A stretch of 38,731 nt of DNA from Rhizobium sp. Its GTDB lineage: Bacteria > Pseudomonadota > Alphaproteobacteria > Rhizobiales > Rhizobiaceae. The notes beneath the pieces are model-generated. The model saw only the letters and a list, made by a program, of their open reading frames with translations, was not told where the DNA came from and ran no database searches. Position 1 is the first letter of the stretch; every line of letters begins with the position of its first letter. Shown here piece after piece: positions 22,310-38,731 of the stretch. The stretch covers positions 1-38,731 of the forward strand of contig JAHRYZ010000009.1 of NCBI GenBank assembly GCA_020621905.1, written 5' to 3'. A program made the translations under genes and the position numbers.

Positions 22310-23824
22310 TCAGTTCTTGACCGTGTCTTCGAGGAAGAAGCGGCCGAGCGGGTTCTGGTCGAAGTTCTCGATGCCCTTGCGGGTCACGTTGATATAGGGG
22401 CTGTAGTAGAGATCGATCCAGTGGACGTCGTCCTTCGCCATCTTCTGGATGTCGACATACATCGCCTCGCGCTTGACCGGGTCCATCTCGATGCGCGCGG
22501 CGGCAACCAGGTCCTTCACCTTGTCGTTCTTGTAGCGCGTCATGTAGTTCATGTTGGAGTCATGGCCCAGCACGAAGGTCGTCTTCTGGTCCGGGTCGAG
22601 AATGTCGTTGGTCCAGTACATGACCGACAGGTCGTAGTCGCCGGCCACCAGCATGTCCCAGGTCTGGCTCGGATCCATCTTCTGCAGGTTGACGGTGATG
22701 CCCGCCTTCAGCAGTTGCTGCTGCAGGAGAACGGCGATCTGTTCGTCGACCTCGTTGCCGGCATTGACCAGGTAGCTGAGCGTCAGGCCGGAAGCGCCGG
22801 CCTGTTCCAGCAGGGCCTTGGCCTTGTCGGGATCATAGGGACGCTGCATGTTGTCGGCGAAGTGATAGAGCGCGCCCTTCGGAATGTAGGAGTTGGCGAC
22901 CTCTCCGAAGCCGAAGGTGACCGCGTCGACCACCGCCTTCTTGTCGATCGCCAGGTCGAGCGCCTCGCGCACTTCCTTCTTGGCCAGCGCACCATGCTCG
23001 TGGTTGATCAGGAGGTGATCCTCGCGGGTGGAGGTGTCGAGGTGAACGGTGAGGTTCGAATCCTTCTTGAGCTCCTCGACGCGGGAGAACGGAACGAAGA
23101 TCGCCGCATCGAGTTCGCCGGCCTGCACGTTCAGCATGCGGGTATTGTCGTCCGGAACGGAGATCCATTCGACGCCGTCGAGACTGACGCGGTCGGCCTG
23201 CCAGAAGTTGGGGTTCTTCTCCAGGATGACCCGGTCGCCGCGACGCCATTCCTTGACGACGAAGGCGCCCGAGGAGGCGGTCGGCAGTTCCCCGAAGGCG
23301 TCCTCGCCGGCTTCGACCGCCTTCTTCGACAGGATGGAGACATTGGGCAGCGCCAGGGCCGAGAGGAAGGGCGCGGACGGGGTCTTCAGCTTGACGACCA
23401 GCGTGCGGTCGTCGGCGGCTTCGGCCGTATCCACCACCTTGTAGGAATCGCTCCACAGCGACCCCTCGTTGTCACGGATACGCAGCAGGCTGTAGGCCGC
23501 GTCTTCCGCCGTGATCGGCGAACCGTCGGAGAACTTCGCATCACGGATCTTGAAGGTATAGGTGAGACCGTCGTCGGAGATCGTCCAGCTCTCGGCGAGA
23601 CCCGGCTCGAGCTTGGTGCCGGTCTTGTCCACCCGGATCAGCACGTCGAAGACGTTGGAAAACACCCAGTTGTCGACGTTCTGCGCCGTCTTGATCGGAT
23701 CGAAGGTCGTCGAATCCTCACGACGACCGATGGTCAGAACCCCCGCCGCTTCCGCAAGACTGGCGCCCAGGGACAGGGAGGTCATCACCGTGACCAGCCC
23801 GATTTTCATCCATTTGTTCTTCAT
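22310..23824 (-). CDS. Peptide-type ABC transporter substrate-binding protein (SBP_bac_5)
   Basis: Signal peptide; LTIGRREDSTTFDPIKTAQNVDNWVFSNVFDVLIRVD; LEPGLAESWTISDDGLTYTFKIRDAKFSDGSPITAEDAAYSLLRI. Confidence 0.94.
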   Translation of the reverse strand: MKNKWMKIGLVTVMTSLSLGASLAEAAGVLTIGRREDSTTFDPIKTAQNVDNWVFSNVFDVLIRVDKTGTKLEPGLAESWTISDDGLTYTFKIRDAKFSDGSPITAEDAAYSLLRIRDNEGSLWSDSYKVVDTAEAADDRTLVVKLKTPSAPFLSALALPNVSILSKKAVEAGEDAFGELPTASSGAFVVKEWRRGDRVILEKNPNFWQADRVSLDGVEWISVPDDNTRMLNVQAGELDAAIFVPFSRVEELKKDSNLTVHLDTSTREDHLLINHEHGALAKKEVREALDLAIDKKAVVDAVTFGFGEVANSYIPKGALYHFADNMQRPYDPDKAKALLEQAGASGLTLSYLVNAGNEVDEQIAVLLQQQLLKAGITVNLQKMDPSQTWDMLVAGDYDLSVMYWTNDILDPDQKTTFVLGHDSNMNYMTRYKNDKVKDLVAAARIEMDPVKREAMYVDIQKMAKDDVHWIDLYYSPYINVTRKGIENFDQNPLGRFFLEDTVKN

Positions 23825-23865
23825 GCTCTTGTTCCCTTTTTTGGTGGTTTGGTTGATCGAAGGCG

Positions 23866-25548
23866 TCAGGCGGCAGACGACATTCCAGGCGGGATCACCG
23901 CGAGGAGCGGCTTGTCCGGGTCGATGTCGGGAATGGCGCCGATAAGGGCTGCGGTATAGGGGTGCTTGGGATTGGCGAAGACCTCGGTCGACAGGCCCTC
24001 TTCGACGATCTCGCCCCGATACATGACGACCACGCGGTCGCAGAGATTGCGCACGATGGCGAGGTCATGGGCGATGAAGAGCAGCGTCAGCGACATCTTC
24101 TCCTTCAGCTCGCGGAAGAGGTCGATGATCTGTGCCTGGATGGTGACGTCCAGCGCCGCGACGCACTCGTCGGCGATGACGAGGCGCGGATCGATCGCCA
24201 ACGCCCGCGCAATGCCGGCGCGCTGGCACTGACCGCCGCTCATGCTGCGCGGCTTGCGGTCGGCAAACTCCCGTTCGAGACCGACGAGGTCGAGCAGTTC
24301 ACCGATGCGGGCGGGGATGCTCGACGGGTCCTTTCCGTGCACCCTGAGGACCTCGCCCAGCATCTGACCGACCGTCAGGCGCGGGTTGAGGGCGTTGAGC
24401 GGATCCTGGAAGACCATGGCCGCCTCGCGCCTGAGCTTCGCGAGCGCCACCCGCGAATTCTGCGCGAGATCGGCGCCGTCGAAGGTGACGTGGCCCGACG
24501 ACAGCGGCGTCAGGCCGAGAATGGCGCGCGCAAGCGTGCTCTTGCCACTGCCCGATTCCCCGACGATGCCGACGGTCTCTCCGGGCATGACCCGGAGGCT
24601 CACGCCCTTGACCGCGCCGACCGTCTTGGCGCCGGCCTTGAACAGCCCGCCGCCGACGGCAAAGCGCACATGCAGGTCGTCGATTTCCAGAAGCGGACGA
24701 AGGGGCGCCCCGGCCGGCGTTGCGGGTGCGTGAGCAGGCGCCGGGCCCGGATGATCGGGAAGCGAGGGATGGCTGGCGATCAGGGCCTTGGTGTAAGGAT
24801 GCTGCGGCGCGGACAGGATCGAACGCTTGTTGCCCTGCTCGACGAGCTGGCCCTGGCGCATCACGGCGATCCGGTCGCAGGTCTGGGCGACGATGCCGAG
24901 ATCGTGGGTGATGAGGATGATCGACAGTCCGCGGCTTTCGCGCAGGCTCATCAGCAGTTTGAGGATCTGCGCCTGGATGGTCACATCCAGCGCCGTCGTC
25001 GGCTCGTCGGCGATCAGGATCTTCGGATTGCACGACAGCGCAGCGCCGATCATGGCGCGCTGGCGCATGCCACCGGAAAACTCGTGCGGGTAGCTGTCAT
25101 ACTGACGGGCGGGATCGGGAAAGCCCACCTGGCCCAAGATCTCGGTGGCAGCCGCGCGGGCCGCACGTGCATCCAATCCCGCGTGGTAGCGCAAACCCTC
25201 GGCAATCTGGTCGCCGATCCGCATGACCGGGTCGAGATGGCTGGTGGGGTTCTGGAAGATCATGCCGATCTCGCGTCCACGCACTTTCAGCATCTCCGCC
25301 TCGCTGGCGCCGATCAGGTCGCGTCCCTCGAGCAGGACGGAACCGCTTTCGACGGCAAGGCTCAGCGAGGGCAGAAGACCGACCATCGACCGGCAGAGCA
25401 GGCTCTTGCCGGACCCGCTTTCGCCGACCAGCCCCAGCACCTCGCCCTTGTGGAGATCGAGCGACACGCCGTTGATCAGCGTGCGCGCCGCATCGCCCAG
25501 ATGCGCCCTGACCACCAGATCCCGCACGGAAAGCATCGGCGCACTCAT
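23866..25548 (-). CDS. Fused duplicate ABC ATPase (DppD-DppF type)
   Basis: Two Walker A motifs (GESGSGKSLLCRS, GESGSGKSTLARA) and two signature motifs (FSGGMRQR, MSGGQCQR). Confidence 0.95.
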   Translation of the reverse strand: MSAPMLSVRDLVVRAHLGDAARTLINGVSLDLHKGEVLGLVGESGSGKSLLCRSMVGLLPSLSLAVESGSVLLEGRDLIGASEAEMLKVRGREIGMIFQNPTSHLDPVMRIGDQIAEGLRYHAGLDARAARAAATEILGQVGFPDPARQYDSYPHEFSGGMRQRAMIGAALSCNPKILIADEPTTALDVTIQAQILKLLMSLRESRGLSIILITHDLGIVAQTCDRIAVMRQGQLVEQGNKRSILSAPQHPYTKALIASHPSLPDHPGPAPAHAPATPAGAPLRPLLEIDDLHVRFAVGGGLFKAGAKTVGAVKGVSLRVMPGETVGIVGESGSGKSTLARAILGLTPLSSGHVTFDGADLAQNSRVALAKLRREAAMVFQDPLNALNPRLTVGQMLGEVLRVHGKDPSSIPARIGELLDLVGLEREFADRKPRSMSGGQCQRAGIARALAIDPRLVIADECVAALDVTIQAQIIDLFRELKEKMSLTLLFIAHDLAIVRNLCDRVVVMYRGEIVEEGLSTEVFANPKHPYTAALIGAIPDIDPDKPLLAVIPPGMSSAA

Positions 25549-26399
25549 TCGTGAACTCCCAGAAGATCGCCAAGCGCATCGCCGAGCAGACTGAAACCGA
25601 AAGCGAGCACGACGATGGAAAGGCCCGGGAAGAGCGTGATCCACCAGGCGGTGGTGACGAAGGCCTGGCCCTCGGCGACCATGATGCCCCATTCGGCGAG
25701 CGGCGGCTGGACCCCGAGGCCGAGATAGCTGATGGCCGCGCCGCTCAGCAGCACGAGCACGGCATCGGACATGACGAAGACGAGAGAACCGGCAACCGCA
25801 TTGGGCAGCAGGTGGCGGAACATGATGCGCGTCCGGCTGTAGCCCAGGCTGACGGCGGCGACCGCATAGTCGCTGTTCTTCAAGACGAGGATCTGCGCGC
25901 GCACCAGCCGGGCATAGGAAACCCAGCCGACCAGCGCCATGGCAATGTAGAAGCTGCCGAGGCCCGGGCCCAAGATGGCGATGATCGACAACATCAGAAC
26001 GAGGAACGGGAAGGCCAGGATGATGTCGATCAGGCGCATGAAGACGATGTCGACGATGCCGCCGAAGAAGCCCGCGACCGTGCCGGCGATCGTGCCGATC
26101 AGGAAGGGGAAGATGACGCCGATCACCGCGATCTGCAGATCGATCCGGGTGCCCCAGATGACGCGGGAGAGAATGTCGCGGCCGAAATTGTCGGTGCCGA
26201 AGGGGTGAAGCAGCGACGGCGCCTGCAATCGCGCATCGGCGGCCTGCGAGATCGCATCATAGGGCGCGATCAGGGGCGCGGCAACGGCGAGGAAGACGAA
26301 GAAGGCGAGGATGCCGGCGCCCGCGACAAGCGTCAGTCGCTTGCCGAGAAAACGGCGCCATTGGACGGCGAAGGACGGGGCGAAGGTTTCGGCGCTCAT
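25545..26399 (-). CDS. Peptide-type ABC permease (DppC-like)
   Basis: HPFGTDNFGRDILSRVIWGTRIDLQIAV; EAA-like loop; 4-bp overlap with ATPase gene. Confidence 0.94.
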   Translation of the reverse strand: MSAETFAPSFAVQWRRFLGKRLTLVAGAGILAFFVFLAVAAPLIAPYDAISQAADARLQAPSLLHPFGTDNFGRDILSRVIWGTRIDLQIAVIGVIFPFLIGTIAGTVAGFFGGIVDIVFMRLIDIILAFPFLVLMLSIIAILGPGLGSFYIAMALVGWVSYARLVRAQILVLKNSDYAVAAVSLGYSRTRIMFRHLLPNAVAGSLVFVMSDAVLVLLSGAAISYLGLGVQPPLAEWGIMVAEGQAFVTTAWWITLFPGLSIVVLAFGFSLLGDALGDLLGVHE

Positions 26400-27333
26400 A
26401 GCTTCACCCTCGGATCGGCGGCCACCGTGACGATGTCGGCCAGGAAGTTGACGAGCACGGTTGCGCAGGCAAAGACCATGGCGACGCCCTGCACCACCAT
26501 GTAGTCGCGCGAGAAGATGGCCCGCACCAGCAATTGCCCCATGCCGGGAAGGGCAAAGACGCTCTCGATCACCACCGTGCCGCCAATCAGCCAGCCGATA
26601 TTGACGGCAAGCAGATTGATGGTGGGCACGAGCGAGTTCGGCACGACATGGCGCCAGAAGACGATGCTCTCCGGCATGCCCCGGGCGCGGGCCGCCGTCG
26701 CCACATCGGATTTCAGCCCCTGCACCATGGCCGCGCGTAGGCTGCGCGTCAGGCCGTCGACAGCGACAGGGCGACGGTCAGGCCCGGAAGCGCGAGATGC
26801 CAGAGCTTGTCGCCCGGGCTGTTGCCATAGCCCGATACCGGGAAGACGCCGAGCTTGACGCTGAACAGGATGATCAGCATCAGCGCCAGCCAGAAGGGCG
26901 GAAAGCCGATGCCGAGCGTCGAGACGACGCGCACCGCGTGATCGGGAACGCCGCCCTGGTTGCGGGCCGCCAGCGCCGCCATCGGCACCGCGATCAGCAC
27001 GGCCAGCAGGACGCTCACCAGCACCAGCGCCAGCGTCGGCTCGATGCGCGTGGCGATCAGTTTCAGCACGTCGATCTTGTAGAGGATCGACTTGCCCATC
27101 TCGCCGCGGCCGAGATTTTCCAGGAAGTAGAAATATTGCAGCCACAGCGGCTCATCGAGGCCGTATTGCGCGCGGATCTTGGCGATCGCCGTCGGCGTCG
27201 CACGCGTGCCTAAGAGCACCCGCGCCGGGTCGCCGGGAATGAGGCGCACGAGAATGAACGTGATGACACTGATCCCGAAAAGCACGGGCAGGAACTGCAG
27301 CGGACGATAGAGAACGAACTTATAGCGATGCAT
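26396..27333 (-). CDS. Peptide-type ABC permease (DppB-like), frameshift near 26755
   Basis: MHRYKFVLYRPLQFLPVLFGISVITFILVRLIPGDPARVLLG; C-terminal half LTRSLRAAMVQGLKSDVATAARARGMPESIVFWRHVVPNSLVPTINLL in next frame. Confidence 0.93.
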
Positions 27334-28273
27334 GGCAGATGCCGTCTCTCCTTGCCGAATTCAGTGCTGGGGGGATGAACATCATCAGTTTGCCCTGTTG
27401 CGCGAGAAATCCGGTGAGCACCGGATAATACTCCTCGGGATTCTCATAGAACGGCATGTGGCTCGCATTGCGGATCACCTTGAGCTCGGCGCCGGGCAAG
27501 GCGATCTTCATGCGCAGTGCGCAAGCCGGGGTCAGTTCGTCGTGCTCGCCGACCGTGATCAGCACCGGAACCTTGATCTTCGGCAGGTCGGGGATCCGGT
27601 TCCAGTCCTTGAGATTGCCGGTGTAGAGGAATTCGTTCGGTCCCTGCATGGTCACATAGGGCCCCATGTTCCAGTCGTCGAGCGAGCGCCTGACCGGGGC
27701 CGGCCATTCCGGCAGGCGGCAGACATGGCGATAGTTGAGGATGGTGACCGCCGCCATGTATTCGGGATGATCGAAACTGCCCTGAGCCTCGTGCTTCTGC
27801 ATCATCGCGACCGTCTCGGACCCGAGCGCCGCGCGCAGCCGTTCCAGCTCGACGACGAGATGAGGCATGTCGGCGACGGTATCCTCGAGGATCAGGGTCG
27901 CCAGGTTTTCCGGATAGGTCAGCGCATAGTCGATGGCGAGCCAGCCGCCCCAGGAATGGCCGAGCATGTGGACCTTGCCGAGGCCGAGCGCCTTGCGGAC
28001 CGTTTCCGTTTCCTCGACATAGCGCCCGATGGTCCACAGGGCCTCGTCCTCCGGCCGGTCGGAAGCGCCGGTGCCGAGCTGGTCGAAGGCGACGACGCGG
28101 TAGCCGTGGTCCACCAGGCAGGAATGGGCCTCCCGCAGATAGTCGCAGGGCAGGCCCGGACCGCCGTTGAGGCAGAAGATCGTCTCCGCGCCGCTGCCGA
28201 AGCTGTAGGCGATCACCCGACGCCCCTCGACATCGACCTCAATGCGCGCGTCCGGCTCCATCTCTCGCCACAT
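27320..28273 (-). CDS. Proline iminopeptidase-family alpha/beta hydrolase (PIP1)
   Basis: FCLNGGPGLPCDYL oxyanion motif, MLGHSWGGWLAIDYAL nucleophile elbow; overlaps dppB-like start by 14 bp. Confidence 0.88.
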   Translation of the reverse strand: MWREMEPDARIEVDVEGRRVIAYSFGSGAETIFCLNGGPGLPCDYLREAHSCLVDHGYRVVAFDQLGTGASDRPEDEALWTIGRYVEETETVRKALGLGKVHMLGHSWGGWLAIDYALTYPENLATLILEDTVADMPHLVVELERLRAALGSETVAMMQKHEAQGSFDHPEYMAAVTILNYRHVCRLPEWPAPVRRSLDDWNMGPYVTMQGPNEFLYTGNLKDWNRIPDLPKIKVPVLITVGEHDELTPACALRMKIALPGAELKVIRNASHMPFYENPEEYYPVLTGFLAQQGKLMMFIPPALNSARRDGICHASL

Positions 28274-28351
28274 ATGCCCGTCCCTGCCCTCGAATTCTGA
28301 TGCCCAACATTTGAGCATGGCTAATTTTTAACGGAATGACGGGTCCACACC

Positions 28352-28371
28352 AGCTATAAGAAGTGATAGGT
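28352..28371 (-). promoter_or_regulatory. lux-box-like inverted repeat, copy 1 (between PIP1 and luxR)
   Basis: Minus strand ACCTATCACTTCTTATAGCT, about 80 bp upstream of PIP1 and 33 bp upstream of luxR. Confidence 0.65.
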
Positions 28372-28403
28372 TGCCCGGATCGGGATGCTTGCCGGAGCAA
28401 GAA

Positions 28404-29161
28404 ATGCTGGACGAAATTGCGGTCCTCAGGGAGAGATTTTCCGCCGCCGGAACGGTGGACGGCAGCGTCGACCAGATGTACGAGACCGCGAAACAGCTCG
28501 GTTTCGATGCCCTGATTTACGACTATACGCCGGTCCCCTTCGACTACAACGGCGACATCATGCTCCCGTCGCTGCTGAAGCTGCGCAACATCGCCGACGA
28601 CATGCCCGATTACTGGTTCAATCGCGGCTATTTCCGCATCGACCCGGTGCAGAGGCTGGCGTGCCGCACCACCGTGCCCTTCTTCTGGAACTACGATCCG
28701 GATGCGGCGACCCTGATCAGCCGCTTCATGACCGAGGAGACCGGGCCGGTGGCTCACTATCTGCGGGAGCGGGACATGTCCCGCGGTATCACCGTACCAG
28801 TGCATACGCCGCGCGGCGACTATGCGACCGTCACCGCCGTGCATTTTGGCCGGGGCGGCGACTTCTCCCGCGAGGCGCAGCACCATATCGCCGAGTTCAG
28901 CCTTGCCGCCCAGGTCTTCCACGAAGCCGCCTATGCGATGTTCGACGCCGGGGCGCGCAGCGTCTCCACGGCGCGCCTGACGGAGCGGGAAAGTGAATGC
29001 CTGCGCTATTCGGCGGAAGGCTATTCGGCCAAGGAAATCTCCCGCATCATCGACCGTTCGGTGCCAACGGTCGTCATGCACCTCAACGCCGCCGCCAAGA
29101 AGCTCGGCGCCAGGAACCGCACCCAGGCGGTCGTACCGCCAGCCATTACCGGCTGCTGTAG
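28404..29161 (+). CDS. LuxR-family regulator with autoinducer-binding domain (PAB-type LuxR solo), frameshift near 29135
   Basis: MPDYWFNRGYFRIDPVQRLACRTTVPFFW; RGITVPVHTPRG; LTERESECLRYSAEGYSAKEISRIIDRSVPTVVMHLNAAAKKLGARNRTQAVV. Confidence 0.93.
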
Positions 29162-29170
29162 GCCGGGCCA

Positions 29171-29189
29171 CCCTATAACTTCGATAGCT
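29171..29189 (+). promoter_or_regulatory. lux-box-like inverted repeat, copy 2 (upstream of PIP2)
   Basis: CCCTATAACTTCGATAGCT; aligns to copy 1 at 16 of 20 positions with one 1-nt gap. Confidence 0.6.
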
Positions 29190-29250
29190 GCGACGCTCTT
29201 CCGCTCGCTATGGTCCGCGACCCAACCGAGGAAGGAGATGCCACACCGAC

Positions 29251-30140
29251 ATGAATGCCACGAGGCTATCTGCCGTTTCGCGATTATCGCACTGCCCGCA
29301 TCACCGGCACGCTGGATTCCCAGAGGCTGCCGCTGGTCGTCGCCCATGGCGGGCCGGGCTGCACCCACGACTACGTCGATTCCTTCAAGCATATCAGCGA
29401 CCTCGACGGCCGCGCAGTGATCCACTACGACCAGCTCGGCAACGGCAACTCGACCCGCCTTCCCGACAAGGGTCCGGACTTCTGGACCGTGGAGCTCTTC
29501 CTCGAGGAACTCGACGCGCTGCTCGCCCATCTGGGCATCAAGGACCGCTACGCCTTTCTCGGCCAGTCCTGGGGCGGCATGCTGGGCGCCGAGCACGCCG
29601 TGCGCCGCCCGGCCGGGCTGAAGGCGCTGGTCATCGCCAATTCGCCGGCGAACATGAAGACCTGGGTGGAGGAGGCAAACCGCCTCAGGCGCGAACTGCC
29701 GCAGGACGTGCAGGACACGCTCACCCGCCACGAGACGGCCGGCAACCTGACCGACCCGGACTACATCGCCGCCTCGCGCGTCTTCTACGACCGTCACGTC
29801 TGCCGCGTCGTTCTCGGCCGCCAGAGGTTGCACGCACCTCGCCATCATGGACGAGGACAATACCGTCTACCGCAACATGAATGGCCCGACCGAATTTCAC
29901 GTCATCGGCACGATGAAGGACTGGACCATCGAGGACCGCCTCCCCCTCATCGAGGCCCCAACCCTGCTGATCTCGGGGCGATATGACGAAGCGACGCCGG
30001 ATGTGGTGCGACCTTATGTCGAACGCGTGCCGGGCTGCCAGTGGATCGTGTTCGAGCAATCGAGCCACATGCCGCATGTGGAGGAACAGGACGCCTGCCT
30101 GAAGGCCGTGTCCGACTTCCTGAAACCGCTCGACGGCTGA
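29251..30140 (+). CDS. Proline iminopeptidase-family alpha/beta hydrolase (PIP2), frameshifted near 29815-29850
   Basis: [38 protein letters not shown]-term [25 protein letters not shown]...[21 protein letters not shown] in another frame; exact start uncertain (29251 or 29255). Confidence 0.88.
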
Positions 30141-30349
30141 CCGCGGGGCAGCGAACCGGCAGGGGCATTTGCATCGCCCCAATCGAGCAGGACTCCGGCA
30201 CGACCGCTGGAGGTTCTGCTGCGTTTGCCATAGCCGGTGTCACCGACCACCCGCCGTCACGATCGCAGCTGCGGCAACCTTCATGCAGCCCCCTCTGACC
30301 GACCCCGCTCTCCGTAAACATCCGAAAATGTGTGACTTCTCCGAATTTC

Positions 30350-30380
30350 ATGTTGCATTTCCAACATCAATATTGTTGGA
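30350..30380. promoter_or_regulatory. Overlapping inverted repeats upstream of the kinase gene
   Basis: ATGTTG-catttc-CAACAT and TCCAACA-tcaatat-TGTTGGA. Confidence 0.5.
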
Positions 30381-30413
30381 TTTGCCAACTCACGATCCGA
30401 ATGGGCGCGCCAA

Positions 30414-31381
30414 ATGTTGTATGATGCAGATTTTCTGTCGAGGCTGGAACATGGTCTGAAGTACCTCTCGTCGGTCTGGGGCGTCTCGCCGGAGGCCGAC
30501 CTCAAGCTCCTGACGATTTCCGAGAACGCCACCTTTCGCATCGCCGACGCCAAGGGCGGGCGCGACCTGATCGTGCGCGTGCATCGGCCCGACTACCATA
30601 CCGAACAGGAAATCCTCTCCGAACTCGCCTGGATCGAGGCGCTGCGGCAGGACGGCGTGGTCGCCACGCCGCAGCCGATCACGGCCAAGGATGGCAGCCT
30701 GCTGCAGGTCTTCTCCGACGGAGAGACCACGCGCCATGCCGTCGCCTTCGAATATATGGCCGGCAAGGAACCGGATGCGAACTGACCGTCCGGTGGTATG
30801 GCGCGCCGGGGAGATCAACGCCCGCCTGCACGGCCACAGCCGAGCACCCGGCCGGACCGGTTCGTCCGCAAGACCTGGAACTTCGACCGCATTCTGAAGG
30901 CGCCTATTGGGCGACTGGCGCGCCGCTTGGGCCACGCCGAAGGGTGAGGATCCCGAGCGCACCCACGCGCTGCTGAACCCAGACTGCGGTCGGCGGCTAC
31001 GGCGCCGATCGCTTCGGTCTCGTTCACTGCGACATGCGCGCCGCCAACCTGCTGGTGGAGGGCGACCGGCTGGGCGTGATCGATTTCGACGACTGCGGCC
31101 TGTCCTGGTTCGCCTATGACTTCGCCGCCGCGATCAGCTTCATGGAGCATGAGCCCTTCATTCCCGACCTGATGGCGGCCTGGCTCGAAGGCTACCGGCG
31201 CGTCGCACCGCTCGATGCCGAACACGAGGCGGCCCTACCGATGTTCATCATGCTCCGCCGCATGCAGCTCACCGCCTGGATCGCCTCGCATGCCGAGACG
31301 CCGACGGCCCAGTCCATGGGCACCGCCTATACCGACGGCACCGTGGCGCTCGCCGAGCGCTATCTGGCCGAACACAGTTGA
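30414..31381 (+). CDS. Aminoglycoside/choline kinase-like (APH family) phosphotransferase, multiply frameshifted
   Basis: N-term [25 protein letters not shown]...; C-term [39 protein letters not shown] catalytic loop in another frame. Confidence 0.82.
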
Positions 31382-31391
31382 GGAGAGCCCG

Positions 31392-32720
31392 ATGAGCGTC
31401 GCCACCAAGGAAATTCTCGACCTCAACCGCTTCGATGCCACCCGCATCGATGGTTTTCCGCCCGAGCTTGCCGAGCGCGTCGCCAAGCGCCAGGCGGCCT
31501 TTGGCGCCTCTTCCGTGCTCTTCTACGAACAGCCGATCGAGATGGTGCGGGCCCGGGGCGCCTATATGTATGACGCCGGCGGGCGCCGATATCTCGACGT
31601 CTACAACAACGTGCCCTCGGTCGGCCATTGCCACCCACGCGTGGTCGAGGCGGTCGCCCGCCAGGTCGGCGAACTCAACATCCACACGCGTTACCTCAAC
31701 CGCGTCGTCGAGGCCTATACCGAAAAGCTGCTCTCCAGGTTTCCGCGGAGCCTCAGCAATGTCGTGCTGACCTGCACCGGCAGCGAGAGCAATGATCTGG
31801 CCATGCGCATCGCCCGCATCGCCACCGGCGCGGAAGGCTTCATCGTCACCGAGGCCGCCTATCACGGCAATACGGCGCTGGTGACGGAGATTTCCCCCTC
31901 CTCGCTGCGCAAGCGCAAACCCGCCCCCTTCGTGGCCATCATCCCGGCGCCCGCCGCGCGCGACGGCAAGAGCGTCGAAGCAAGCTTCGCGGCCTCCGTC
32001 GAACAGGCGATCGCCGAGCTCGAATCGCGCGGCATCGGCCTTGCCGCACTGATCATCGACACGATTTTTTCCAGCGACGGCATCTATGCCGATCCGGCCG
32101 GCTTCCTCAAAGGGGCGACCGATGCCGTGCACCGCGCCGGCGGCCTGTTGATCGCCGACGAGGTCCAGCCCGGCTTCGGCCGCACCGGCGGCGGCTTGTG
32201 GGGGTTCGAGCGCCATGGCGTGACGCCCGACATCGTCACCATGGGCAAGCCCATGGGCAACGGCTTCCCGATGGGCGGGGTCGTCACAAGGCCAGAATTC
32301 CTGAAACGGTTCTGCGAGGAGACCGGCTATTTCAACACCTTCGGCGGCAATCCGGTGGCGGCCGCGGCCGGCCATGCCGTGCTGCAGGTGATCGAGGATG
32401 AGGGGCTGATCGAGCGGTCCGCCACGGTCGGCGGCTATTTCATGCGATCGCTTGAGGCCTTGCAGGGCACGCATTCCGAGATCGGCGACGCGCGCGGCGC
32501 CGGCCTGTTCATCGGCCTCGATTTCACCGACCCGGCGACGGGTGAGCCGGACACGGCACTGGCCACCCATGCGATCAACCAGCTGAAGCACAACGGCATC
32601 CTGATCGGAGCGGCGGGCAAATATGGTGCGACGCTGAAGATCCGCCCGCCGCTGTGCTTCTCTAAGGAGGATGCCGACCTCTTCACCGGCACGCTGGACA
32701 CGATCCTCAAGGCGCGCTGA
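31392..32720 (+). CDS. Class-III aminotransferase-fold PLP enzyme (aminotransferase or phospho-lyase)
   Basis: [82 protein letters not shown]. Confidence 0.93.
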
Positions 32721-32735
32721 GACACCTGATACGCC

Positions 32736-32771
32736 GAAGAAGCCGGGCGCGACATCGTGCCCGGCTTCTTC
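32736..32771. terminator. Perfect 13-bp-arm hairpin between convergent genes
   Basis: GAAGAAGCCGGGC-gcgacatcgt-GCCCGGCTTCTTC. Confidence 0.65.
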
Positions 32772-32776
32772 CGTTG

Positions 32777-33541
32777 TCAGCCCATGGCTTCGAGCGCCAA
32801 GCGATTCCGGCAGGATCTGGCCGCCATCGACGACGATCGACTGGCCGGTGATATAGGCGGCCTCTTCTGACGCAAAGAACAGGGCGGCATTGGCAATATC
32901 TGCCGGCGTGCCGAGACGGCGGAGCGGCACCGAGGCTTCCATGGCGGCGATATATTCCGGACCGTTGCCTTCGAGGCCTTCCGTCATGATGTTGCCGGGC
33001 ATCACGGCATTGACGGTGATCTTCTTCGGCGCAAGCTCGATCGCCGCGGTGCGCATGAAGCCGAGCTGGCCGGCCTTGCTCGCCCCGTAATGCGACCAGC
33101 CCGGATAACCGGTGATCGGTCCGGTGACGAGATGATGATGCGGCCGGAGCCCGCCCTGGTCATCGCCGGCAGCACGGCCGAGACGCTGAGGAAGGTGCTC
33201 TTGAGATTGGTCGAGATGACGTGATCGAAATCGGCCGCCGTCATTTCGCCGAGCCTGGCGGCCGGGAAGATGCCGGCATTGGCGCACAGCACGTCGACGC
33301 CGCCATAGCGGGCGACGGCCGCCTCGACCATGCCCTTGCAGCCCTCCTCCGTGCTGACATCGGCGGCATATCCCGATGCGTTCGGGCCGATTTCGGCGGC
33401 GACCGCGTCGGCATCCGCCTGGCTGCGCGACACGACGAGCACGTTCAACCCGGCCTCCCCGAAGCGCAAAGCGATGCCCTTGCCGATCCCGCGGCTGCCA
33501 CCCGTGACGATAACTGTTTTACCTTGTAGCGACTTCAACAT
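32777..33541 (-). CDS. Short-chain dehydrogenase/reductase (FabG-like), frameshifted near 33135 and 32800
   Basis: [80 protein letters not shown]. Confidence 0.9.
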
Positions 33542-33856
33542 TTTTGGCTCACTTCGTTGTTCTGGACCAAGGGCACTCGGCCGCCGATATTGCCCGATAT
33601 TTTTGCGCGAGATTAAAACCTAGCCACTCCTGCATCGGCGATTGCCCAAAAGAAATGCAAAGTAATTCTCGTACATTAGGTGGAATTCGACGGCGGATGC
33701 AGGACGTCGGCAGGCGTCATTTCGCTTGCCACATCCTCATTGCGCAATGCACAATGAAGAAGAAAATAGATGTTGTAAACTACACATTTTTGCGACACAC
33801 TTCCAACATTATAAGTTCACAAGCCGCCACAGCCGGCCAGAAACAGGGGAACGATA

Positions 33857-34996
33857 ATGATGAAACTCTCCAGACGTAACATGATGCAGATGATGGGCGC
33901 GGCCGCCTTCTCCGGACCGCTGGCAAGCGCCACGCGCGCCTTTGCCGCGCGCGAGAAGGAACTGAACATCCTCTGCTGGGAAGGCTACAATTCCGCCCAG
34001 GTGCTCGACCCGTTCCGCTCCAGCCAGTCGGCGACCGTCAAGGCCGAAAGCCTGACCAACGACCCGACCATGATCAACCGCCTGCGCGCCGGCGAAACCA
34101 AGATCTGGGACCTGATCAACGTCAACAATCCCTGGGCCCGCAAGGTCATGGCGCCGGCCGGCCTCATCAAGCCTTTGCCGCGCGCCGAGTTCGAGCCCTA
34201 TTTCGACACCATGCTGCCGGACTTCAAGGCGCCCTATCGCTGGGCGATGAGCGACGACGGCAAGGATCTGCTGGGCATGGCCCAGCGTTTCGGACCCTAC
34301 AGCTTCGTCGTCAACACCGACAAGGTCAGCAAGGCGACGGCGGAAGAGCAGGGCTGGGAGCTGTTCAACGACACGGCTCTCGCCGGCAAGTACGGCATCC
34401 AGGAATCCGACGACTGGAACGTCTTCAACATCTTCCTGATCGCCGGTATCAATCCGTTCAAGGAGCACACGGAAGAGGAATTCAAGGCCTTCTCCGCGAC
34501 CGCCGAGAAGGTGTTCAAGGGCGCCAAGATGGTCGGCGACATGGCCTCGCTCAACCAGGCGCTGGTATCCGGCGAAATCGACCTCTACATGACCGGCGGC
34601 ACCTATTCCGTCTCGCCGGCCCGGGCCGACGGTTATCCGAACCTGCGTGCCATCACCCCGCTCAAGGGCCCGATCGACGGCAAGGGCGGCATTTCCTGGA
34701 TCGAGATCACCTCCACCGTCAACAATCCGGATCTGTCGCCGCTCGCCATCGAATTCCTCAAATATGTCCAGGATCCGGAAGTCGCCCACACGGTCGCCTT
34801 CGCCGAGGGCACGTTCAATCCGGTCAGCCAGATGGGCAATCCGAAGTGCTTCGAACTGTTCACCAAGGACGAGCTGGACGCCATCCAGTGGGACAGCCTT
34901 GAAGAGGACATGGCCCGTTCGGCCGAGTACGACATCGTGCCCGACTACGACAAGGCACTGGAACTGATGACGGCGGCCAAGCGCCTGCGCGGCTGA
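33857..34996 (+). CDS. Polyamine-type ABC substrate-binding protein (PotD-like) with Tat signal
   Basis: SRRNMMQMMGAAAFSGPLASATRAFA twin-arginine signal; ELNILCWEGYNSAQVLDPFRSS. Confidence 0.92.
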   Translation: MMKLSRRNMMQMMGAAAFSGPLASATRAFAAREKELNILCWEGYNSAQVLDPFRSSQSATVKAESLTNDPTMINRLRAGETKIWDLINVNNPWARKVMAPAGLIKPLPRAEFEPYFDTMLPDFKAPYRWAMSDDGKDLLGMAQRFGPYSFVVNTDKVSKATAEEQGWELFNDTALAGKYGIQESDDWNVFNIFLIAGINPFKEHTEEEFKAFSATAEKVFKGAKMVGDMASLNQALVSGEIDLYMTGGTYSVSPARADGYPNLRAITPLKGPIDGKGGISWIEITSTVNNPDLSPLAIEFLKYVQDPEVAHTVAFAEGTFNPVSQMGNPKCFELFTKDELDAIQWDSLEEDMARSAEYDIVPDYDKALELMTAAKRLRG

Positions 34997-35025
34997 GCCG
35001 CGCAAGGTCTGACGGAGCAAACGAA

Positions 35026-36156
35026 ATGAGCCTTGCAATGATCTCGCCCACCCTGACCGACAACCCATCGGAGACCGAAGACGCAGTCCAGGCCACAACG
35101 GCACCGGTTCTGCAGCTGGTCGATGTCCGCAAGATCTTCGGCGATTTTGCCGCGGTCGACGGCATCAATGTCGACATCAAGGAGGGCGAGTTCGTCACCA
35201 TTGTCGGACCCTCCGGGTCCGGCAAAACGACGCTCTTGCGCATGCTGGCCGGCATGGAATCGCCGTCGCAAGGCTACATCACGCTCCGCGGCGAACTGAT
35301 CAACGACGTGCCGGCCGACAAGCGGCCGACATGTCTTGTCTTCCAGTCGCTGGCGCTCTTCCCGCACAAGACCGTCGGCGAAAACATCGAGTTCCCGCTG
35401 AAGGTCCGCAAGATGCCGGCGGCCGAGCGCAAGGCCCGCGCACTCGAACTGATGCGCATGGTGCGCCTGCCCGAGAGCTACTACTCCAAGAACGTGATGC
35501 GCTGCTCGGGCGGCGAAAAGCAGCGCGTGGCGCTGGCCCGCGCCTTTGCCTACGACCCGGACGTGCTGTTCTTCGACGAACCGCTGTCGGCGCTCGACTA
35601 CAAGCTGAAGAAGGTACTGGAGAAGGAACTGAAGGATCTCCACCGCGAGAGCGGAAAGACCTTCGTCTACATTACCCATTCGCTCGAGGAAGCCATGGTG
35701 ATGTCCGACCGCGTCGGCGTCATGAGCCGCGGCCGCCTCGTGCAGATCGGCACGCCGGAGGAGATCTACACCCGGCCCGCCACCCGTTTCGTCGCCGAGT
35801 TCTTCGGCGAGGTGAACAGCTTCGAAGTGAAGCGCGAGGGTCAGGGCGCCTGGACCCTGACCGATGGCAAGCCGATCACGGTGGCCCCGGTCGGCGAAGC
35901 GATCGGCGACACGGCCACCGTCATCGTGCGGCCGGAGACCATGCGCTTCGTCACCGGCCCCTCGAGCGCCGACAACCTGATCACCGGCAGGATCTACAAC
36001 GAATACTCGCTTGGCTCGCGCATGCAGTACCAGGTGCATTCCGGCGAACGGATCTACCTCGTCGAGGCGGCACGCACAGCGGTGGCCGGCATCTCCGCGG
36101 GCGACACCGTCACCATCGGCTGGGATGCCCGCGACGCCATTGTGGTGGGAGACTGA
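35026..36156 (+). CDS. Polyamine-type ABC ATPase (PotA-like)
   Basis: GPSGSGKTTLLRMLAGMESPSQGYI; CSGGEKQRVALARAFAYDPDVLFFDEPLSALD; TOBE-like C-terminus. Confidence 0.96.
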   Translation: MSLAMISPTLTDNPSETEDAVQATTAPVLQLVDVRKIFGDFAAVDGINVDIKEGEFVTIVGPSGSGKTTLLRMLAGMESPSQGYITLRGELINDVPADKRPTCLVFQSLALFPHKTVGENIEFPLKVRKMPAAERKARALELMRMVRLPESYYSKNVMRCSGGEKQRVALARAFAYDPDVLFFDEPLSALDYKLKKVLEKELKDLHRESGKTFVYITHSLEEAMVMSDRVGVMSRGRLVQIGTPEEIYTRPATRFVAEFFGEVNSFEVKREGQGAWTLTDGKPITVAPVGEAIGDTATVIVRPETMRFVTGPSSADNLITGRIYNEYSLGSRMQYQVHSGERIYLVEAARTAVAGISAGDTVTIGWDARDAIVVGD

Positions 36157-36157
36157 C

Positions 36158-37054
36158 ATGGCGGTAGCGACCCACGAAGACATGGCAAGCCGTGCAAGCG
36201 CCCTGCCCGCGATCCCCGCCGGCCTTCGCGCCGCCGGCCCCGTTGCCATCCTGCTGGTGCTGGGCTTCCTCGCCCCACTGCTGACGGTTGCGGCTTATGC
36301 CTTTGCCACGCCGAAGAGCTTCGACGCCTTCAGCTCCTTCACCCTCGCCAATTTCGCGGCGATCTTCGACACCTCCAACACGGTGTGGATGTCGTTTGCC
36401 TGGTCGCTTGCCTATGCATTCGCCACCGTGGTGCTTTTGGCAGTGATCGCCTATCCGATCGCCTATGGCCTCAATCGCGTGTTCGGCAAATGGTCGGGCT
36501 TCGTCGGCGTGCTTTTCGTCTTCCCGCTCTTCGTCTCGGAAAACGTCCGCCTCTATGGCTGGGTGCTGTTCTTCATCAAGAACGGCGTGCTCGACGGCGG
36601 ACTGAAATGGCTCGGCTTCTCCGGCGGCCCCGAAGTGCTCTACACGCCCGGCGCCATCCTCTTCGGCATGCTCTATGTCTACCTGCCCTTCATGCTCTTC
36701 CCGATGTCGCTCGGCATCGCCATGATCCCCAGGGACCTGGTCGATGCGGCGCGCGACCTTGGGGCCGGCCGCCTGATGATCTGGCGCGAGATCGAACTGC
36801 CGCTCGCCATGCCCGGCATCCTGATCGGCATGCTGCTCACCTTCGTGCTCGGCGCCGGCGCCATCGCCGAATCCAAGATCCTAGGCGGCCAGTCGGTCAT
36901 CACCATCGCCCAGGACATCGAGGTCGCCTTCACCTATGCGCAGAACTGGCCGCTGGGTTCGGCACTCGCCATCCTGCTCGTCATCATCGTCAGCGGGCTT
37001 GCCCTCCACGTCCTGTCGAAGCTCGATCTCGACCGCATTCTCGGAAAGAAGTGA
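36158..37054 (+). CDS. Polyamine-type ABC permease (PotB-like)
   Basis: Multi-TM; IPRDLVDAARDLGAGRLMIWREIELPLAMPGILIG EAA motif. Confidence 0.94.
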   Translation: MAVATHEDMASRASALPAIPAGLRAAGPVAILLVLGFLAPLLTVAAYAFATPKSFDAFSSFTLANFAAIFDTSNTVWMSFAWSLAYAFATVVLLAVIAYPIAYGLNRVFGKWSGFVGVLFVFPLFVSENVRLYGWVLFFIKNGVLDGGLKWLGFSGGPEVLYTPGAILFGMLYVYLPFMLFPMSLGIAMIPRDLVDAARDLGAGRLMIWREIELPLAMPGILIGMLLTFVLGAGAIAESKILGGQSVITIAQDIEVAFTYAQNWPLGSALAILLVIIVSGLALHVLSKLDLDRILGKK

Positions 37055-37057
37055 GAC

Positions 37058-37866
37058 ATGGAAACCCGCTCGCAGATCCGCGCCCGCGCCTTCGTCAAGC
37101 TCTGGACCGCATTCGTCGTTCTCGCCATCTACCTGCCGATCGTCTGCGGCGCGCTGGCCGGCCTGTCCAAGGGCCGCTACTTCGCCTTCCCGGTCCGCGT
37201 CTTCTCGACCGAATGGTGGAGCAAGACCTTTGCCTCGCTGGAAATCCAGACGCTGGTGCAGAACTCGCTGCTGATCGCCTTCATCGTCACGCTGGTCTCG
37301 GTGGTCTTCGCCTTCTTCGGCGCACTCGCCTTCGCCCGTTACGACTGGAAGGGCCGCAAGCTGTTCCAGAAGGCGAGATCCTCTGCCCGTCTTCTCTTTC
37401 CGCAGCCGGTGCGGGGCTCGCCCTCCTCCTGTGGTTCAACGCGCTCGGCATCAATCCGAGCTGGCAGACGGCGGTCGTCGCCCATCTCGTCTGGATCGTG
37501 CCGGTGGTCACCCTGGTCATCGCCATCCAGGTCTATTCCCTCGACCCGACGCTCGAAGAGGCCGCCCGCGACCTCGGCGCCAGCCGCTGGTTCATCCTGC
37601 GCGAGATCACCCTGCCGATCCTCTGGCCCGGCATCTGGTCGGGCGCGCTCTTTGCCTTCCTGCTGTCCTGGGGCAATTTCCCGCTGTCGCTCTACACGGC
37701 GGGCGTCGACTCGACGATCCCGAAATGGCTCTACTCGAAGATGGTCGCCGGCTATTCGCCGATGGTCCCGGCGCTCGGCACGATGAGCACGCTTTCGGCC
37801 GCCGCCCTGTTGCTTGCCGGCGGACTTGTCATCATGCTGGTGCGCCGCCGCCAGGCGGAAGCATGA
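37058..37866 (+). CDS. Polyamine-type ABC permease (PotC-like), frameshifted near 37375-37415
   Basis: N-term METRSQIRARAFVKLWTAFVVLAIYLPI...; C-term LEEAARDLGASRWFILREITLPILWPGIWSG in another frame. Confidence 0.93.
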
Positions 37867-37876
37867 GGATCATCGC

Positions 37877-38578
37877 ATGAGCTGGAAGACCGAACGCCGT
37901 TCCTTCTACTACCAGGGGGCCCCGGAGCCCGAGGATCCGGTGCTCGAAAAGGGCAAGGTGGCGCTGCTCGTCATCGACATGCAGAACACCTATCTCGATC
38001 GCCCGGACCCTGCGACCCTGTCGGCCGTCGACCTTGCCCGCTATCACGCCTGGACGCCGTTCCATGAGCGGATGCACGGTACCGTCGTCCCCAACAACCA
38101 GCGCCTGCTGGAGCGCTTCCGGTCGCTCGGCCTCGACGTGCTCTTCGCCCGCATCGCTTGCCTGCGCACCGATGGCCGTGACCGATCGCTCAGCCAGAAG
38201 AAGCCCGGCTGGAACAACCTGCTGCTGCCGAAGGACGAGCAGGCCTCGCAGATCCTGTCGCAGATCGCCCCGCTCGACGGCGAGATCGTCGTCACCAAGA
38301 CGACCGACAGCGCGCTGACCGGCACCAATCTGAGACTCGTGCTCGCCAATATGGGCATCACCCATGTGGTGTGCACCGGCATCTTCACCGACCAGTGCGT
38401 CTCCTCGACGGTGCGCAGCCTCGCCGACGAGAGCTTCGACGTGATCGTCGTCGATGATGCCTGCGCAGCCGGCTCGATGGACCTGCATGTGAGCGAGCTG
38501 GAGCGCATCCACATGATCTACGCCAATGTGATGAACACCGACGAGCTGATCGGCTATCTGCCGCCCGCGCAAGGATGA
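37877..38578 (+). CDS. Isochorismatase-like cysteine hydrolase
   Basis: ALLVIDMQNTYL; VVTKTTDSALTGTNL; VVCTGIFTDQCVSSTVRSL (Asp-Lys-Cys triad). Confidence 0.93.
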   Translation: MSWKTERRSFYYQGAPEPEDPVLEKGKVALLVIDMQNTYLDRPDPATLSAVDLARYHAWTPFHERMHGTVVPNNQRLLERFRSLGLDVLFARIACLRTDGRDRSLSQKKPGWNNLLLPKDEQASQILSQIAPLDGEIVVTKTTDSALTGTNLRLVLANMGITHVVCTGIFTDQCVSSTVRSLADESFDVIVVDDACAAGSMDLHVSELERIHMIYANVMNTDELIGYLPPAQG

Positions 38579-38643
38579 GACAGTCGGGGATGGCGCGCGC
38601 CCTGGACTTGTCCCACTTGGCCGTTCCTGACACAACTTGGCCG

Positions 38644-38731
38644 ATGAAAGCGCCCGAAATCCTCTGTGCCGGCAAGACCCTCGCCGTCCGCTTCGCCGCC
38701 GAACAGGCGGTGCTCAGCTGGTCCCTGAGCC
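38644..38731 (+). CDS. Truncated 5' end of a CDS, possibly adenosylcobinamide amidohydrolase (CbiZ-like)
   Basis: MKAPEILCAGKTLAVRFAAEQAVLSWSLS...; open to window edge; family guess only. Confidence 0.3.
   Translation, partial: MKAPEILCAGKTLAVRFAAEQAVLSWSLS

Follow-up and report, generated by a model that had tools for sequence, protein, structure and literature searches.

Paired pip/lux-type boxes in front of the two iminopeptidase genes of a rhizobial pipR locus

Genes and dyads of the pipR locus

Analysis of a 38,731-nucleotide stretch of contig JAHRYZ010000009.1 (the window), which belongs to a 4.4-Mb Ciceribacter genome (Rhizobiaceae), revealed a gene encoding a LuxR-type regulator (pipR; positions 28404 to 29161, plus strand). 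It was delimited by domain searches, ortholog alignment and comparison with sister genomes. The deduced product contains an Autoind_bind domain (PF03472; 8.9e-27) and a GerE/LuxR-HTH domain (PF00196; 3e-13). It carries the plant-associated PAB (class D) signature, in which W57 and Y61 of TraR are replaced by M and W; these residues of the motif DMPDYW align with W and Y of PAWQEHY in RhlR. Genes for proline iminopeptidases (TIGR01250) adjoin pipR on both sides, as is typical of PAB LuxR solos, and they do so in all 80 loci compared. A luxI search of the genome detected no cognate luxI at the pipR locus, and the sole match lies on another contig (C398), where another luxR is also found. Judged from its sequence, pipR is orthologous to the genes of the plant-responsive PAB LuxR solos NesR, PipR and OryR. 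Such a solo is believed to respond to a ligand other than an acyl-homoserine lactone.

The gene on one side, pip1 (27320 to 28273, minus strand; TIGR01250, 1.7e-79), encodes an aapA-like hydrolase of the proline iminopeptidase family with a conserved start (MWRE, 28273); a frame error close to the 3' end may have extended the listed end. Downstream of pip1 lies a dipeptide-type ABC transporter cluster (22310 to 27333, minus strand), which comprises permeases (26396 to 27333, frameshifted, and 25545 to 26399), an ATPase (23866 to 25552) and an SBP_bac_5 binding protein (22310 to 23824; Pfam, 7.6e-98). All of these components are found on the same strand downstream of pip1 in 80/80 loci. On the other side, pip2 (29238 to 30140, plus strand) encodes a pipA-like proline iminopeptidase (TIGR01250, 7.8e-43 for one piece). 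Missing bases split it into two open reading frames in the window, and the frame is intact in one sister genome (L010). Comparison with the sister genomes favored a start at about 29238 over the ATG at 29251.

Upstream of each pip gene lies a 20-bp dyad of the lux/pip-box type, xCCTATmACTTsTkATAGCT. Operator 1, ACCTATCACTTCTTATAGCT, occupies positions 28371 to 28352 on the minus strand and points toward pip1. Operator 2, CCCTATAACTTCGATAGCT (that is, CCCTATAACTTC-GATAGCT), occupies positions 29171 to 29189 on the plus strand and points toward pip2. Both lie exactly where an earlier note on this DNA had put them. Its further measurements were reproduced as well: 16 of 20 aligned columns agree between the copies, the distances to the pip genes are about 79 bp (pip1, start at 28273) and 62 bp (pip2, ATG at 29251), and 33 bp separate the end of copy 1 from the pipR ATG at 28404. 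Copy 1 directly contains CT(N12)AG, the core described for both las and pip boxes (PMC4471428); copy 2 reads CT(N11)AG in the window and N12 in both sister genomes. The half-site mismatches of the two boxes are opposite and conserved, being promoter proximal in box 1 (CCTATCA...TTATAG) and promoter distal in box 2 (CCTATAA...TGATAG). Shuffling of the window gave an expectation of 0.07 matches with up to 3 mismatches, and the occurrence of the pair is far above chance.

The earlier note had left it undecided whether copy 2 is truly one nucleotide shorter or has lost a base in this assembly. Both sister genomes, those of Ciceribacter selenitireducens (L011, identical to L045) and of a Rhizobium sp. 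metagenome-assembled genome (L010, identical to L046), read CCCTATAACTTCTGATAGCT, which is 20 bp long. A real length difference between the boxes was thereby ruled out, and the missing base is attributed to an assembly deletion. Compared with the sisters, the window is about 20 bases short between 29100 and 30000, far more than elsewhere in the alignment. This loss accounts for the apparent frameshifts in pip2 and at the end of pipR, where the frame is broken near 29136 by one missing base.

Conservation and confinement of the boxes

Conservation was determined in 80 retrieved loci from Rhizobium, Ensifer/Sinorhizobium, Mesorhizobium, Neorhizobium and Ciceribacter. Both boxes were present in 80/80 loci; many of these come from closely related species, so that the counts are not independent, while the range of genera and the contrast with the flanking sequence stand. 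Columns 2 to 20 of box 1 read CCTATCACTTCTTATAGCT and are identical in 79/80 loci, and its upstream flank shows 30 to 57% identity per column at most positions. Box 2 reads CCTATAACTTsTGATAGCT or a close variant. The only point in favor of regarding the boxes as coincidental short inverted repeats, or as a repeat element, is that they are short. With 0.07 matches expected in the window, boxes unique in the genome, and both boxes kept in 80/80 loci at a fixed spacing to pip1, we consider this reading practically negligible, and the conservation already refutes it.

The distribution of the boxes was determined by genome scans with IUPAC patterns. The pattern describing the two copies gave 2 matches in the 4.4-Mb genome, both at this locus, and the reversed control gave 0. 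In the sister genomes, the exact core occurs at the two pip boxes only. A scan of six carrier genomes with a 16-base consensus, allowing up to 2 mismatches, returned the same two sites as sole matches, and the window's own genome returned one, owing to the deletion in copy 2. The six genomes yielded no third copy; the earlier note had spotted none in front of the kinase or polyamine-ABC genes. Relatives of the 16-bp core with one mismatch were not commoner than in the reversed control. A degenerate pattern matched at the pipR locus only in 13 carriers and not at all in 6 sampled congeners without pipR.

Regulator and pattern listings of 299 family genomes were cross-tabulated by hand. A pipR-like regulator was found in 29 of them, and 20 of these 29 have a pattern match; an exact match to the degenerate pattern is absent from the other 9/29. 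All 30 matches in the 20 carriers are located no more than about 115 bp from pipR. Among the 270 family genomes that lack the regulator, 6 contained a total of 7 matches. Because the pattern was derived from pipR loci, the matches there arise partly by construction; the absence of matches elsewhere does not. The motif is not equally frequent at unrelated loci, its matches in carriers being confined to the pipR neighborhood, and the rhizobial pipR regulon looks private.

This distribution also bears on the idea that the boxes serve as binding sites for another LuxR-family protein, of which five others with a ligand domain exist, or for a different regulator. The genome encodes six Autoind_bind proteins and one luxI, and OryR and LasR can cross-activate promoters (PMC4471428). 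However, the boxes track pipR: none of the 6 sampled congeners without pipR has any, and only 6/270 family genomes without pipR contain a pattern match. Moreover, the change of motif from alpha- to gammaproteobacteria is accompanied by a change of the recognition helix. Binding by such another regulator therefore appears highly improbable. Two lux-box-like operators, one for each pip gene, remain the best reading of a pair that is conserved, confined to the locus and arranged like that of PipR in Pseudomonas sp. GM79.

Promoter register and a predicted uptake and degradation circuit

Measurement of the spacing in the 80 loci revealed that the distance from box 1 to the pip1 start is nearly constant (87.9 ± 1.5 bp), whereas that to a fixed pipR codon varies (SD, 9 bp). 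A probable -10 hexamer of the pip1 promoter, TAAAAA (28325 to 28330, minus strand), occupies columns 42 to 47 after box 1 in 76/80 loci. Downstream of box 2, the pattern TATGNT is found at columns 43 to 48 in most of the 80 loci; in the window it is represented by TATGGT (29209 to 29214, plus strand), a probable -10 hexamer of the pip2 promoter from which the start site is inferred. With starts deduced from these hexamers, the box centers would lie at about -43.5 (operator 1) and about -44.5 (operator 2, in the sisters). The box center of LuxR-activated promoters is typically at -42.5 (PMC4471428). The presence of -10-like hexamers in the same register after both boxes fits LuxR-type activation. 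A general sigma-70 scan identified no promoter at its threshold. A further motif, TTnnG (28331 to 28336, minus strand; columns 36 to 40 after box 1), sits between box 1 and the pip1 -10 hexamer and is 99 to 100% conserved in the 80 loci.

The locus is a further case of a known type of system, for which functional evidence has been published for PipR of GM79. In that strain, PipR activates pipA via a box at -71.5, and mutation of the box abolishes PipR-dependent expression (PMC4981722). A second potential box at -91.5 of aapA has a small effect, and a mutant of the ABC transporter is unresponsive, the transporter being needed for the response (PMC4981722). The genomes themselves show the two boxes, how well they are conserved, how they are placed relative to the hexamers and pip starts, that they are confined to the locus, and how the genes are laid out. 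Homology with PipR of GM79, which has been tested, suggests the following model for ligand, binding, activation, feedback and operon structure. Both dyads would be binding sites of the PipR/NesR-type solo encoded between them. A small ligand, probably plant derived, would be imported by the adjacent ABC transporter and bind PipR, and a PipR dimer would then settle on each box just upstream of the -10 element. Occupancy of box 1 would switch on pip1 and the transporter genes, and occupancy of box 2 would switch on pip2. More importer would mean more ligand uptake (positive feedback), while the peptidases would consume the ligand (negative feedback), giving a self-limiting circuit. On the present analysis, PipR-type activation of pip1-transporter and pip2 via both boxes is very probable. 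Box 1 could matter less than box 2, because the effect of the aapA box is small in GM79. PAB solos do not in every case activate pip under the conditions tested, examples being PsrR (PMC7301841) and PsaR2 (PMC3909224).

The earlier note had also suggested that copy 1 allows autoregulation of pipR. As far as activation is concerned, this found no support: box 1 is in register with pip1 and not with pipR, and activation of pipR from it was rejected on account of the variable spacing. Repression is conceivable. On the pipR strand, box 1 reads GCTATAAG, a -10-like element, and all 80 loci retain the base that both interrupts the dyad of box 1 and gives rise to TATAAG. In Ensifer aridi, expression from the nesR promoter is higher in the nesR deletion mutant, though near background (PMC8877191), and the E. 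aridi locus (L069) has an identical box. On the other hand, the spacing from box 1 to the pipR start is anywhere between 30 and 80 bp, the pipR strand shows no evident -35 element, autoregulation is absent for psaR2 of P. syringae pv. actinidiae (PMC3909224), and in some relatives at a greater distance the dyad is perfect and TATAAG is lacking. That box 1 serves mainly as an auto-repression site, at which PipR would shut down its own promoter and activate pip1 at the same time, is plausible but rather less likely than not. More speculative still is a combination in which rhizobial PipR/NesR has a private two-promoter regulon, oppositely asymmetric operators and box 1 as a dual-purpose switch. 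If this were true, box 1 would activate pip1-transporter and shut off pipR through the embedded TATAAG, and the wide effects of nesR mutations would be indirect consequences of ligand uptake and turnover.

Comparison with known systems and the adjoining genes

Like the PipR-pipA/aapA-AapBCDEF system of Pseudomonas sp. GM79, the locus has a LuxR solo between two peptidase genes, a peptide-type ABC transporter adjoining one of them and a 20-bp inverted repeat before each. The box centers are also comparable (-71.5 and -91.5 in GM79; about -65 to -71 and -88.5 in the window). The two differ in the half-site (CTATCA here, CTAGC type in Pseudomonas-like loci), in the residue at TraR position 57 (M here, W in GM79) and in the location of box 1, which here lies between genes and not inside the pipR reading frame. 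An ethanolamine derivative has been reported as the ligand of PipR, but a closely homologous transporter protein of another species does not bind it (PMC10134790).

NesR of Sinorhizobium meliloti and Ensifer aridi represents the rhizobial orthologs, whose genes are flanked by the same pip genes and transporter. One S. meliloti strain (L098) and E. aridi LMR001 (L069) carry both boxes. The literature searched contained no published operator description for NesR of these two species, nor a published operator for the rhizobial branch. The pair provides the rhizobial members of the plant-responsive LuxR solos with an explicit and testable candidate operator. What is new here are the opposite conserved half-site mismatches, the private-looking regulon and the possible repression of pipR from box 1. 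NesR has been linked to methionine-cycle, stress and nodulation phenotypes, and deletion of nesR lowers nodulation in E. aridi (PMC8877191), whereas the regulon predicted from the box scan consists of two local promoters. With an apparent regulon of two sites, it becomes a sharper question how the broad nesR-mutant phenotypes arise. Since the site is near-invariant in Rhizobium, Ensifer, Mesorhizobium, Neorhizobium and Ciceribacter, one reporter design could be applied to many symbionts and would serve the search for the plant signal.

OryR, XccR and XocR of Xanthomonas are likewise PAB LuxR solos with a CT(N12)AG pip-box dyad before pip; their reported targets lie at other places in the genome (motility genes, recN and trpE), in contrast to the local sites found here. 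With the canonical lux box (LuxR, LasR and TraR), the operators share a 20-bp dyad next to the core promoter (canonical center, about -42.5), but the locus lacks luxI. Outside the 80 loci, an alphaproteobacterium from a different order (L136) carries CTCTATCATTTTTGATAGGT, with a second site that is similar. In four loci, all from one genus in another class of the phylum and with a layout that we infer to be Pseudomonas-like, ACCTAGCTGTTTTGCTAGTT precedes pip2. In one of these (L133), the center of ACCTAGCTGTTTTGCTAGTT is 71.5 bp before the ATG, matching the published position in GM79 pipA, and a second dyad lies on the opposite side. Among the Pseudomonas-like loci, L130 and L133 have two boxes at matching places, the half-site CTAGC and an altered recognition helix. 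The helices differ correspondingly (SVPTVVMHL versus SLAVVTLHL). In the comparison with L130 to L133 and L136, the half-site is CTATC in alphaproteobacteria and CTAGC in Pseudomonas-like loci, and the recognition helix changes with it, which offers a natural pair for mapping the DNA specificity of LuxR solos.

Synteny with both sister genomes ends at about 30158, directly after pip2. The remainder of the window (30158 to 38731) encodes an APH-type kinase, a class III aminotransferase (PRK06148/PRK06149-like), an SDR, a polyamine-type ABC transporter and an isochorismatase, and represents a lineage-specific insertion or rearrangement, or a misjoin. None of the 80 loci has these genes close to pipR, apart from low-identity matches to the aminotransferase and the SDR (2 loci each) and an ABC-ATPase match at 32% identity in 80/80 loci, which is weak and generic and falls on the peptide transporter. 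Membership of the kinase and polyamine-ABC genes in the PipR system was ruled out by the end of synteny and by their absence beside pipR, and on the same evidence a link of the APH kinase, aminotransferase, polyamine-ABC and isochorismatase genes with the system, which could have suited catabolism of an ethanolamine-type ligand, was rejected. Upstream of the kinase gene (30345 to 30395), the repeats TTGCATTTCCAAC and GTTGGATTTGCCAAC resemble operators of another regulator.
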